Positions 31,062 to 34,544 of a DNA stretch of 64,000 nt are shown one piece after another; position 1 is the stretch's first letter, and each line of letters begins with the position of its first letter. The DNA lies in contig NZ_JACCBF010000001.1 in assembly GCF_013409625.1 (NCBI RefSeq), positions 682,001 to 746,000 of the forward strand, given 5' to 3'. The stretch comes from Nocardioides kongjuensis. Lineage in GTDB: Bacteria > Actinomycetota > Actinomycetes > Propionibacteriales > Nocardioidaceae. The position numbers and the translations under genes are program-made. The notes beneath the pieces were generated by a model. The model was not told where the DNA came from. It saw only the letters and a program-made list of their open reading frames with translations, and searched no databases.

Positions 31062-31918
31062 GCCGAGACCTTCTTCCGGTGGGCGGGCGCGGCGAGGGTG
31101 GCGGTGAGACGACGGGAGACCGCCGCGAACGGCCGCTGGTACGACGCACCCAGGGCGCGCACGACCAGGTCGACCGCGACCGCGTCGGCGCCGATCAGCA
31201 CCTTCGGGCGGCCGCGCCGGACGCCGCGCAGGATGGTGCGGGCGGCGGCCTCGGGCGTGGTCCGGGTCAGCTTCTCGTTGAAGACCCGCGCGATGCCGGA
31301 GGTGTCGGCGGCGTTGCTCGCCGTCGCGTTGTTGACGATGTTGGTCTTGATCCCGCCGGGGTGCACGCACGTGACGCCGACCGGCTGGCCGGAGATGAGC
31401 AGCTCCTGGCGCAGCGCCTCGGTGAACCCGCGCACCGCGAACTTGGCGGCGTTGTAGGAGCTCTGGGTCGGCACGCCGAACAGGCCGAAGATGCTCGACA
31501 CGTTGACGACGTGGCCCTCACCGGACGCGGCGAGGTGGGGGAGGAACGCCTTGGTGCCGTGCACGACGCCCCAGAAGTCGACGTCGACGACCTTCTCGAT
31601 GTCCTCGTAGGGGCTCTCCTCGACGGTGCCGAAGATGGTGATGCCGGCGTTGTTGACGACGAGGTTGACCGCGCCGAAGTGGGCGGCGACCGCGTCGGCC
31701 CAGGCGTGCACGGCGGCCCGGTCGCGGACGTCGAGCACCGTGCTGTGCGGCTGCGCACCCCGCTCCTCGAGCAGCAGCGCCGTCTCGGCGAGGCCGTCGG
31801 CGTCCCAGTCGCTGATCGCGACCCGGGCGCCGTCGGCGACGAGCTGGAGGGCGAGCGCCCGGCCGATGCCGGATCCCGCGCCGGTGATCGCGGCGACCTT
31901 GTCCTGGAAGTCCTTCAT
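31058..31918 (-). CDS. SDR family oxidoreductase
   Basis: A 286-aa short-chain dehydrogenase with ITGAGSGIGRALA, NNAGITIFG and the active-site YNAAKFAVRGF, plus a C-terminal extension of about 40 residues as in the SDR/ketoreductase subfamily of Nocardia and mycobacteria. It starts 84 nt from the divergent TetR gene with a clear operator between, so both it and the OYE gene are probably repressed by that TetR protein. Substrate unknown. Confidence 0.9.
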   Translation of the reverse strand: MKDFQDKVAAITGAGSGIGRALALQLVADGARVAISDWDADGLAETALLLEERGAQPHSTVLDVRDRAAVHAWADAVAAHFGAVNLVVNNAGITIFGTVEESPYEDIEKVVDVDFWGVVHGTKAFLPHLAASGEGHVVNVSSIFGLFGVPTQSSYNAAKFAVRGFTEALRQELLISGQPVGVTCVHPGGIKTNIVNNATASNAADTSGIARVFNEKLTRTTPEAAARTILRGVRRGRPKVLIGADAVAVDLVVRALGASYQRPFAAVSRRLTATLAAPAHRKKVSA

Positions 31919-31944
31919 GGCCGGGAAACCTAGTTCCCAGTCAG

Positions 31945-31976
31945 GTGACTTGACAAGTCACTTGACTTGCAAAGTC
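31945..31976. promoter_or_regulatory. Two TetR-type operators in the divergent promoter
   Basis: The perfect 17-bp palindrome GTGACTTGACAAGTCAC is at 31945-31961. A second, shorter one, GACTTGCAAAGTC, follows at 31964-31976. They share the GACTTG half-site and lie between SDR and TetR starts, where a TetR dimer would control both directions. Confidence 0.7.
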
Positions 31977-32002
31977 GGCGAGACCTGCGCCACGATCGGC
32001 CC

Positions 32003-32635
32003 ATGGCAGCGGCGGCGAGGGCGACGGCGACGGCGGGACGGCGTCAGGTCGACCGTCGTGCCGCGACCACCGAGCGCCTGCTCGACGCGACCATCGAGTG
32101 CCTCGCCGAGGACGGGTACGTCGCCACCACCACCCGCCGCGTCGCCGAGCGTGCCGGGGTCAGCCAGGGCGCCCAGCAGCACTACTTCCCGACCAAGGCG
32201 GCCCTCGTCGACGCGGCGATGCTCCGCCTCGTCGAGCAGCTCCTCGCCGACGCCGCGACCCGTGGCCTCGACGTCGGCTCCGAGCAGGAGCGGGCCGGCG
32301 CGCTGCTCGACATGATCTGGGAGATCCACAACCTCCCCGTCACGCCGGCGGTCCTCGAGCTGTTCAACGTCGCGCGCACCGAGCCGGTCCTGGCGGCGCG
32401 GGTGGCCGAGATCGTGTGCAGCGGCATGAGCGAGATCCAGGGGATCGCGGCGGCCCTGCTGCCGTCGTACGCCGAGCGCGAGGGCTTCGCCGACCTCATC
32501 CAGATCGCGATGGCCACCGTCCGCGGCACCGTCGTGGTCGCCAACATCCCCGGCGCCACGGACGCGTACCCGGACTGGCCGGTGCTGCGCGCCCACCTCC
32601 TCGCGAGTCTCGAGCGGCTAGGCTCGCCCGCATGA
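32003..32635 (+). CDS. TetR family transcriptional regulator (divergent from SDR-OYE)
   Basis: A 210-aa regulator with RRAATTERLLDATIECLAEDG and the helix-turn-helix TTRRVAERAGVSQGAQQHYF, followed by a TetR_C-type domain. ATG 32003 is preferred over a longer frame from 31967 that would run into the operators. The upstream palindromes at 31945-31976 make autoregulation and control of the SDR-OYE operon likely. Its TGA overlaps the ATG of a possible 6-codon leader for the MFS gene. Confidence 0.9.
   Translation: MAAAARATATAGRRQVDRRAATTERLLDATIECLAEDGYVATTTRRVAERAGVSQGAQQHYFPTKAALVDAAMLRLVEQLLADAATRGLDVGSEQERAGALLDMIWEIHNLPVTPAVLELFNVARTEPVLAARVAEIVCSGMSEIQGIAAALLPSYAEREGFADLIQIAMATVRGTVVVANIPGATDAYPDWPVLRAHLLASLERLGSPA
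32619..32624 (+). promoter_or_regulatory. -10 box for the MFS leader transcript
   Basis: TAGGCT lies 7 nt before the ATG at 32632, the spacing of a leaderless start. It is inside the 3' end of the TetR gene, so the MFS gene may have its own promoter. Confidence 0.45.
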
Positions 32636-32652
32636 CCTCCCGGAACCACTAG
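32632..32652 (+). CDS. Candidate leader peptide of the MFS transporter (MTSRNH)
   Basis: A 6-codon reading frame ATG to TAG, overlapping the TetR stop. Bases 32636-32646 (CCTCCCGGAAC) are complementary, with one bulged C, to 32714-32723, which contains the MFS ribosome binding site. A hairpin lies between: 32662-32669 with 32680-32687, extended by AGGAC/GTCCT. Ribosomes stalled on the leader would free the MFS site, as in ermC-type translational attenuators. This is an inference from pairing alone. Confidence 0.45.
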   Translation: MTSRNH

Positions 32653-32692
32653 GACTCCGCTGCGGCCGGTCGCCTCGCGCCGGCCGCGTCCT
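32651..32692 (+). promoter_or_regulatory. Stem-loop in the MFS leader
   Basis: AGGAC (32651-32655) pairs with GTCCT (32688-32692) and GCGGCCGG (32662-32669) pairs with CCGGCCGC (32680-32687) around a 10-nt loop. It may serve as TetR terminator, as part of an attenuator, or both. Confidence 0.55.
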
Positions 32693-32729
32693 CGGCGTCC
32701 CCTCACCCCTTCTGTTCCGGAGGAATCCC

Positions 32730-33962
32730 ATGTCCGGCGTCACCGACGCCGGGAGCACCCGCCTGCTTCTCGCCGGCCCCGCGGTCGCGCGCACCTTCGC
32801 GTGCGCGCTGCTCGGCCGGCTGGCGTACGGCGTGCTCCCGCTCTGCTTCCTGTTCACCGTCCGCGACGCGACCGGGTCGTTCGCGGTCGCGGCCACCTGC
32901 TCGGCGACCCTCGGGCTCGCCACCCTCGTCATGCCCGTCCAGGCCCGGCTGCTCGACCGGCTCGGCCAGCACCGCGTGCTGCCCATCGCCGCCGGCTGCT
33001 GGTCGGGACTGCTGCTGTGTGTCGTCGCGCTGGCGCAGGGACAGCACCCGGCCGGCGCGTGGCTCGGACTGTCCCTGCTGCTCGGGCTCTGCGGCCCGCT
33101 GCTCGGGCCCTCGATGCGCGCGCAGTGGCGCGAGATCGCGCCGGAAGGCCCACCGCGCCGCCGGGCCTACGCGCTGGACTCGGTCGGCGAGGAGTCGCTC
33201 TACCTGGTCGGGCCCGTCGTGGCGGGCGGCGTGCTGGCGGCCGGCCCCGCGTGGGTCGGGCTGCTCGTCGCCGCCGGGCTGGTCTGGTCCGGCACGCTCG
33301 CGCTGCTCGCCTCGCCGTACCGGCCGCCGGTCCGAGCGGTCGCCGCCGCTCCAGCCGCGCGCCGAGGCGGACCTGCCGGCCTGAGCGGGCTGAGCGGGCT
33401 GGTGCTCGCGCTGCTGCTCTTCGGCGCCGGCAGCGCGGCGAGCTTCGTCGGCATCGCCGCCCTGGCCGACCGGGCAGGCCGCCCGGGCCTCGCCGGTCCC
33501 GTCGAGGCGGCCCTCTCGGTCGGGGCGGTAACCGGCGGACTCCTGTGGGCCCGGCACGGCCACCGTGGTCCCGCCGGCCGGGTGCTCGCCCTGCTGGTCG
33601 CCTTGCTCGCCGCCGCCCAGCTCATCGTCGCAATCACCGGCGGCCTGCTGGTCGCCGCTGTCGTGCTCGGGGTCGGCGGCCTCGCCACGTCGCCTGTCCT
33701 CGTGGTCGCCTACGCCGCCGTCGACGAGCGCGTCCCGGCCGGTCGTCGTACCGAGATGTCGACGTGGGTCAACGTCGGCGTCAACAGCGGCAGCGCGCTC
33801 GGTACGGCGGGGGCCGGGCTGCTCGCCGGCGGGGGAACGGCACTGCCGTTCGTCCTCGCTGCCGGGCTCTCGGCGGGCGCCGCCGGCGTCGCGCTGGCGT
33901 GGGGCAGGATGTCCCCATGGCCATCCACATCACCGACGACGCCGCCGCCGACGAGCTCCTGA
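32730..33962 (+). CDS. MFS transporter
   Basis: A 410-aa major facilitator protein with about 12 hydrophobic segments and the usual central break near LASPYRPPVRAVAAAPAARR. ATG 32730 is preceded by GGAGGAA at 32719-32725. It probably exports a small molecule or drug; the upstream short leader with anti-ribosome-binding-site pairing supports inducible expression. The 3' end overlaps the HhH-GPD gene by 46 nt in another frame. Confidence 0.85.
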   Translation: MSGVTDAGSTRLLLAGPAVARTFACALLGRLAYGVLPLCFLFTVRDATGSFAVAATCSATLGLATLVMPVQARLLDRLGQHRVLPIAAGCWSGLLLCVVALAQGQHPAGAWLGLSLLLGLCGPLLGPSMRAQWREIAPEGPPRRRAYALDSVGEESLYLVGPVVAGGVLAAGPAWVGLLVAAGLVWSGTLALLASPYRPPVRAVAAAPAARRGGPAGLSGLSGLVLALLLFGAGSAASFVGIAALADRAGRPGLAGPVEAALSVGAVTGGLLWARHGHRGPAGRVLALLVALLAAAQLIVAITGGLLVAAVVLGVGGLATSPVLVVAYAAVDERVPAGRRTEMSTWVNVGVNSGSALGTAGAGLLAGGGTALPFVLAAGLSAGAAGVALAWGRMSPWPSTSPTTPPPTSS

Positions 33963-34483
33963 GCTCCAACCCGTTCGCGCTGCTCGTGGGGATGATGCTC
34001 GACCAGCAGTACCCGATGGAGCACGCCTTCATGGGCCCGCAGAAGGTCGTCAGCCGGTTCGGCAGCTTCGACCCGGCGGCGATCGCGGCGGCCGACCCCG
34101 AGGAGTTCGCGGCGCTGTGCTCGACCACGCCGGCGATCCACCGGTTCCCGGGCTCGATGGCAGCGCGGCTGCAGGAGCTGGCCCGCATCGTCGTCGACCA
34201 GTACGACGGCGACGCCTCGCGGCTGTGGACCGAGGCGGCCGACGGCAAGGACCTGCTCAAGCGGATCCAGGCGCTGCCCGGGTTCGGGGCGCAGAAGGCG
34301 AAGATCTTCACCGCGCTGGTGGCCAAGCAGCTCGACGTCCGGCCGACCGGGTGGGAGAAGGCGGCGGGCGACTACGCCCTCGACGGCTTCCGCTCGGTCG
34401 CCGACGTCGTCGACCCGGTGTCGCTGCAGAAGGTGCGCGACCACAAGAAGGCGGCGAAGGCGGCCGCCAAGGCGAAGGCTTAG
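33917..34483 (+). CDS. HhH-GPD base-excision DNA repair protein
   Basis: A 188-aa DNA glycosylase-like protein. [19 protein letters not shown] corresponds to the N-terminal helices and [19 protein letters not shown] to the helix-hairpin-helix. A Lys/Ala-rich tail ([12 protein letters not shown]) may contact DNA. The actinobacterial small HhH-GPD proteins lack an iron-sulfur cluster, and no cysteine cluster is visible here. ATG 33917 lies inside the MFS gene's end. Substrate lesion unknown. Confidence 0.87.
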
Positions 34484-34544
34484 CGCCACCGCCGACGCCC
34501 CGGCCGCCGTATCCTCGGGACACCCCCTGCGGAAAGGTGCCGAG

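Follow-up and report, generated by a model that had tools for sequence, protein, structure and literature searches.

In the window, the whole 64,000-nt stretch of Nocardioides kongjuensis DNA that was analysed (assembly GCF_013409625.1, contig NZ_JACCBF010000001.1, positions 682,001-746,000 of the forward strand), a six-codon open reading frame at the start of an mRNA probably serves to sense ribosomes, concealing or exposing the start site of an MFS transporter gene. Judged from sequence, related transporters in many soil actinobacteria are preceded by an element of this layout, with peptides that differ widely. Sequence and computation give its architecture, its conservation, a covarying pairing and, in most loci, a predicted release of the ribosome binding site (RBS), and the likely reading is translational attenuation by a leaderless mini-ORF, on which a delayed ribosome would free the RBS of the MFS gene. 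The leader is presumably translated and, by analogy with parallel systems, the delay would be caused by ribosome-targeting antibiotics and the transporter would export such a drug.

The features of the locus are collected in Table 1. The leader frame reads ATG ACC TCC CGG AAC CAC TAG and a 7-nt spacer separates TAGGCT from the ATG at 32632, so that the box, spacer, start codon and MTSRNH frame described in an earlier sequence-only reading are all found as proposed; that reading did not include the overlap of the leader ATG with the TetR stop codon TGA (ATGA, 32632-32635). The ATG of the MFS gene (32730) lies 77 nt past the leader stop codon. When both strands of the 64 kb were scanned with a strict motif (TAnnnT, 6-7 nt, ATG or GTG, five to six codons, stop), the site at 32619-32652 was the single occurrence. 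A simple E. coli-type promoter scan of 31500-34500 returned no promoter, which counts against the proposed promoter, and an Rfam covariance-model search of the window stretch and six homologous loci returned no family at the leader. The interval that separates the TetR gene from the divergent SDR gene contains a palindrome, GTGACTTGACAAGTCAC (window 31940-31975), a possible TetR operator that is distinct from the MFS element.

Table 1. Positions of the leader, its pairing partners and the proposed regulated gene in the window.
Feature	Position	Strand	Basis or remark
-10 box TAGGCT (TAnnnT)	32619..32624	+	within last TetR codons; sequence
Leader ORF MTSRNH*, 6 codons, stop TAG, putatively leaderless	32632..32652	+	sequence; homologues
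Anti-RBS strand in leader codons, bulged C at 32641	32636..32646	+	MFE fold; covariation
Inner pairings, 32652-32655 + 32657-32659 with 32697-32700 + 32693-32695	32652..32700	+	MFE fold
Inner GC stem, with 8 bp at 32662-32669 / 32680-32687	32661-32669 / 32680-32688	+	MFE fold
Leader-paired RBS strand	32714..32723	+	MFE fold
Shine-Dalgarno GGAGGA of MFS gene	32719..32724	+	by eye
MFS transporter gene, 410 aa, proposed regulated gene	32730..33962	+	ORF; PF07690 E 6.1e-14

The complementarity of 32636-32646 (CCTCCCGGAAC) with 32714-32723 (GTTCCGGAGG), noticed before with its one bulge (the C at 32641), amounts to 10 pairs and is present as a helix in the minimum-energy fold. This helix spans most of the Shine-Dalgarno GGAGGA and encloses the inner GC hairpin, which corresponds to the strong hairpin already noted between the paired strands. 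The segment 32632-32732, leader/RBS helix included, folds at -45.5 kcal/mol (z -4.21), a value equalled by 0 of 200 shuffles; the mean leader-RBS pairing probability in the window is 0.77 and, by computation only, masking of the leader releases the RBS by 5.5 kcal/mol. Another hairpin, CCGGCGTCACCGACGCCGG, opens the MFS coding sequence (window 32732-32750), and both arms, compared by eye, are present with altered bases in many homologues; it could additionally influence initiation.

Homologous loci (n=65) come from at least six actinobacterial families and include Nocardioides, Kribbella, Actinoplanes, Streptomyces and others. Searches within the genus with the MFS protein covered 196 genomes, 174 of them with some match, and among the 30 loci listed and examined the element is present in all 14 full-length relatives with at least 45% identity (the window gene counted) and absent from all 15 MFS genes that are more distant, with about 30% identity. 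One further locus (L015, 1747-1767, minus strand) retains a leader, MTSRDH*, with TGGGCT as its -10 box, next to a decayed MFS gene in which similarity is found only at residues 313-409. Among named genomes (Nocardioides, Pimelobacter, Arsenicicoccus, Kribbella, Aeromicrobium, Kineosporia, Actinoplanes/Paractinoplanes and one Micrococcales MAG), a search found the element in 25 of 25 loci (17 new and scanned, 8 repeat genes), a further search in 8 of 8 (3 examined, the rest repeats) and an order-level search in 24 of 24 (19 examined, the rest repeats). Since the MFS gene of L073 starts with TTG, the leader of this locus was initially identified by eye. At the class level, with a Streptomyces protein as query, the leader was found in 18 of 22 loci, 17 of which fit the usual window; L099 carries a leader of the same kind 306 nt ahead of the MFS start, and L104-L107 carry none. 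Four Streptomyces plasmid records were found, and both of those examined have the leader together with the MFS gene. These copies, L109 and L110, reside on plasmids pCLA1 and p3211-1, respectively, and the one on p3211-1 adjoins an IS30 transposase gene.

The 65-locus set omits repeats of the same gene (L032-L035, L041, L043, L047, L052, L056-L060, L063, L064, L069, L070, L072 and L082-L086), as well as the near-copy L076, L015 and L099, while the leader-less loci L016-L030 and L104-L107 stand outside it and are counted apart. The strict motif occurs in 31 of 31 homologous upstream regions versus 2 of 9300 dinucleotide shuffles of those regions, figures that apply to a window chosen post hoc with the data already seen (a loose window matches 0.8% of shuffles); none of the 15 distant MFS genes carries the strict motif. 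In a tree of 83 MFS proteins (64 with and 19 without leader), from which L081 was excluded for its short translated match and whose root and several long branches are uncertain, the leader label requires 3 changes versus 17.3 with shuffled labels; the leader therefore belongs to one MFS subfamily. With the same caveat about branches and root, L106 may have lost its leader.

All 65 loci combine TAnnnT and a spacer of 6-7 nt with an ATG (55) or GTG (10) start and a frame of six (59) or five (6) codons, located 70-134 nt ahead of the MFS start. A TAnnnT box 5-7 nt ahead of a start codon is the mark of a leaderless mRNA, and in S. lividans the mean distance from TAnnnT to the 5′ end is 6.3 nt (PMC8079986); from this mapped spacing we infer a 5′ end at the leader ATG. 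The -35 region scarcely rises above shuffles, at least three of five matches to TTGAC being found in 29 of 65 loci and in 35% of shuffled sequences.

Compensatory changes in orthologues, which the sequence-only reading had named as a check on the pairing, are evident as covariation. Specifically, cognate leader/RBS duplexes reach -21.0 kcal/mol in 31 loci versus -17.0 kcal/mol for non-cognate ones (0 of 20000 permutations), and a different helix score over the 65 loci gives 20.7 for cognate versus 16.7 for non-cognate pairs (0 of 5000). Permutations restricted to groups, which lessen but do not abolish the effect of shared ancestry, were as extreme in 0 of 5000 cases for the Nocardioidaceae and others (n=23), 1 for Kribbella/Kineosporia (n=18), 3 for the streptomycetes and others (n=19) and 243 for Actinoplanes (n=5 only). 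The helix sequences vary widely, as in CCTCCGGAAG/CTTCCGGAGG (L006), CTCCGTGA/TCACGGAG (L010), TGCATGAAG/CTTCATGCA (L013) and CTAGAGAGC/GCTCTCTAG (L038), and the pairing register varies from clade to clade: in many Kribbella loci the pairing strand is shifted to the leader stop codon, and in L053-L055, of the Actinoplanes group, the leader pairs upstream of the Shine-Dalgarno. The computed mean RBS-leader pairing probability is at least 0.3 in 56 of 65 loci and predicted pairing is weak in the other nine (L004, L013, L046, L049, L050, L053, L054, L055 and L108).

The effect of a ribosome was mimicked by masking leader nucleotides 1-30, with the cost of opening the RBS as readout. On average over the 65 loci this cost falls by 3.6 kcal/mol, versus 0.35 kcal/mol with shuffled leaders, and a release of at least 2 kcal/mol is reached in 46 loci versus 3 of 65 shuffled-leader means. 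The release stays below 2 kcal/mol in 19 loci, and there is zero gain in L004, which is closely related to the window, as well as in L046 and L053. Ribosome masks placed at codons 1 to 6 give a mean release of 2.9-3.8 kcal/mol over all loci, and the means are positive in every group, with only 0.6-1.3 kcal/mol in Actinoplanes; the Nocardioidaceae group is released already with masking from codon 1. Features of a translational attenuator that are present here are a short leader ORF in 65 of 65 loci and, by computation, RBS sequestration and ribosome-driven exposure.

The mechanism that we propose is as follows: (i) the MFS mRNA would begin at the ATG of a leaderless ORF of five to six codons, (ii) a leader free of ribosomes would pair with the MFS RBS around the inner hairpin, leaving the transporter untranslated, and (iii) a ribosome lingering on the leader would mask the anti-RBS strand, because it covers about 30 nt and hence the whole mini-ORF, so that the RBS would open and the transporter would be made. 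With the length locked in this way, a ribosome stopped almost anywhere on the mini-ORF, its start and stop codons included, could free the RBS. As a tentative generalisation, possible rather than probable, the leaders could be length-gated and largely sequence-independent occupancy sensors of one MFS subfamily across Actinomycetia, where one ribosome covers the five to six codons, any unfinished ribosome is reported, slow release at UAG is the key step and the outcome is an alarm for many translation inhibitors.

A partly overlapping explanation, somewhat doubtful on its own, is that termination itself is sensed, with slowed release at UAG, through a drug or through the supply of release factor, as the event that is read out. 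TAG ends 59 of the 65 leaders versus 12 of the 65 MFS genes at the same loci (the latter with 50 TGA and 3 TAA), and this preference suggests that the release step may play a role; the MsrDL leader provides a precedent in which release factors are blocked (PMC10314930), and RBS release in Kribbella/Kineosporia peaks when the ribosome sits near codons 3-6. However, many Kribbella loci, such as L038, have the TAG within the helix, where pairing could maintain it, and the remaining leaders end in TGA (5) or TAA (1). The release by masking from codon 1 in the Nocardioidaceae group also speaks against termination as the signal, as does the observation that MsrDL with UAG or UGA is less inducible than with UAA (PMC10314930).

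The sequence-only reading had likened the element to an ermC-type attenuator. Translational attenuation as such is upheld by the conservation, the covariation and the predicted release in most loci, whereas an ermC-like peptide-specific arrest is unsupported, because the leader residues are not conserved beyond close relatives. In such an arrest, one drug and a defined nascent-chain motif would stall the ribosome at a set codon, and this is improbable for a collection of 47 distinct peptides over 65 loci, from MTSRNH to MFLLLA to MSQTPP; the conservation of MTSRNH, named as a check in that reading, does not extend past close relatives. The final residue is A in 22 leaders, D in 19, H in 14, P in 7, V in 2 and C in 1. 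In three of four groups a codon-position test gave no synonymous excess (314 of 2000 column shuffles in the streptomycetes and others, 1651 in Kribbella, 1560 in Nocardioides). The fourth, Actinoplanes, is a small set with 22 synonymous changes versus 8 that are not (5 of 2000), and the residues of its MSQTPP leader, kept through synonymous changes, would agree with peptide recognition, as would the Streptomyces leaders MFLLLA, MYLLLA and MYLLMA, which are akin in length and character to the macrolide-sensing MYLIFM. Peptide conservation was dropped as an argument, the codon-position test being positive only in that small Actinoplanes set. Start, stop and length are kept while the residues drift, and occupancy sensing therefore fits better than a fixed arrest peptide.

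It is distinctly unlikely that the element is a static hairpin or uORF that holds the transporter at a constant low level and conveys no signal. The 5′ UTR folds would accord with it, since they are better than the average of the shuffles in every one of the 65 loci (z below 0, mean -3.5, and -2 or lower in 57), but a static block needs neither an in-frame start and stop at 15 or 18 nt nor a fixed promoter spacing. Transcription attenuation, or amino-acid attenuation, via the leader has a very low probability. The pairing target is the RBS, and no terminator-like site (GC hairpin followed by a T run), as an intrinsic-terminator attenuator would carry, was found on the plus strand of 31500-34500. 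MTSRNH has no repeated residue, no residue is common to all 47 peptides (Arg, the most frequent, occurs in 29), and leucine-rich leaders of the kind that an amino-acid attenuator might use (MFLLLA, MYLLLA) are present in 8 of 65 loci only, even if leaderless amino-acid attenuators are known in Streptomyces (PMC8079986). At L103 a T run follows a GC hairpin immediately ahead of the RBS (about 1454-1477), and this branch may use transcription attenuation. Finally, the tail of a tetR transcript with a chance ATG, given earlier as the alternative in the form of a TetR terminator, is untenable and of next to no probability: the window does have a TetR-like gene upstream, with a stop codon that shares bases with the leader ATG, but the homologues refute it, with the element retained behind a LuxR-type response regulator (L008) and behind an ORF without Pfam family (L003), and with the motif in just 2 of 9300 shuffles.

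The transporter itself is described in general terms. Pfam assigns the window protein to MFS_1 (PF07690, E 6.1e-14) only, NCBIfam gives no family at E 0.1, and among six MFS proteins none exceeds a curated NCBIfam cut-off, the top model being TIGR00900 (H+ antiporter) with 54.4 bits versus the 319.6 required. A PDB sequence search returned no solved relative, and the 120 relatives listed for each protein search bear generic names (MFS transporter, MFS family permease, MFS family arabinose efflux permease, membrane protein, hypothetical protein). At L003 an RNase P RNA gene (20-394) lies about 1.1 kb upstream of the MFS copy.

If the leaderless attenuator holds, it would be a widespread type that is lacking from Rfam and missed by the length cut-offs of gene calling, in genera that both produce and encounter numerous antibiotics. 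It would link leaderless translation, which is common in actinobacteria, to the sensing of ribosome state, and it amounts to a prediction, made on sequence alone, that delayed ribosomes turn on a transporter family so far uncharacterised. Its Streptomyces copies bring the element within reach of standard laboratory strains. The element is unreported in the titles and abstract starts among the literature matches listed, a coverage outside which most subscription papers fall, and a full-text search with six leader peptides found none in the texts covered.

Translational attenuation as a kind is already known; what appears new is a form that is leaderless and locked in length, together with its wide occurrence ahead of one MFS subfamily. 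In the translational attenuators of the ermC/cat type, as proposed for the MFS leader, a short leader ORF governs RBS exposure, there of a resistance gene; those leaders are longer and have their own RBS, and Erm leaders have a defined arrest peptide, unlike the leader described here. The hexapeptide leader MsrDL of msrD (MYLIFM*) is also six codons long and arrests at its own stop codon with erythromycin; as described in the available passages, it differs in acting on a transcription terminator, in its UAA stop, in being peptide-specific and in serving a streptococcal ABC-F gene (PMC10314930). Short actinobacterial uORFs are known as well from are5sc, tiaA and lmrC (PMC12421871, PMC8546547). 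Specifically, the S. coelicolor are5sc uORF, MLV, is responsive to drugs by which ribosomes are held at start codons (PMC12421871), and drugs also hold ribosomes at the start codon for tiaA (PMC12421871, PMC8546547). Unlike the present case these uORFs precede ABC-F genes, with premature terminators for are5sc and lmrC, and the passages on them contain no description of leaderless translation (PMC12421871, PMC8546547). The leuL and trpL attenuators of S. lividans have a leaderless leader peptide and a TAnnnT promoter, as proposed here, but they comprise 12-29 codons, are tied to the sensed amino acid and are described as transcriptional (PMC8079986). For toiL-topAI of E. coli, the available account gives the uORF its own Shine-Dalgarno and control over a toxin-antitoxin operon and does not make it leaderless (PMC12121999). 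Yet toiL, like the leader described here, pairs around the RBS of its target, and stalling anywhere in the uORF, at various sites, is proposed to unmask the topAI RBS, in a system that senses several drug classes (PMC12121999).
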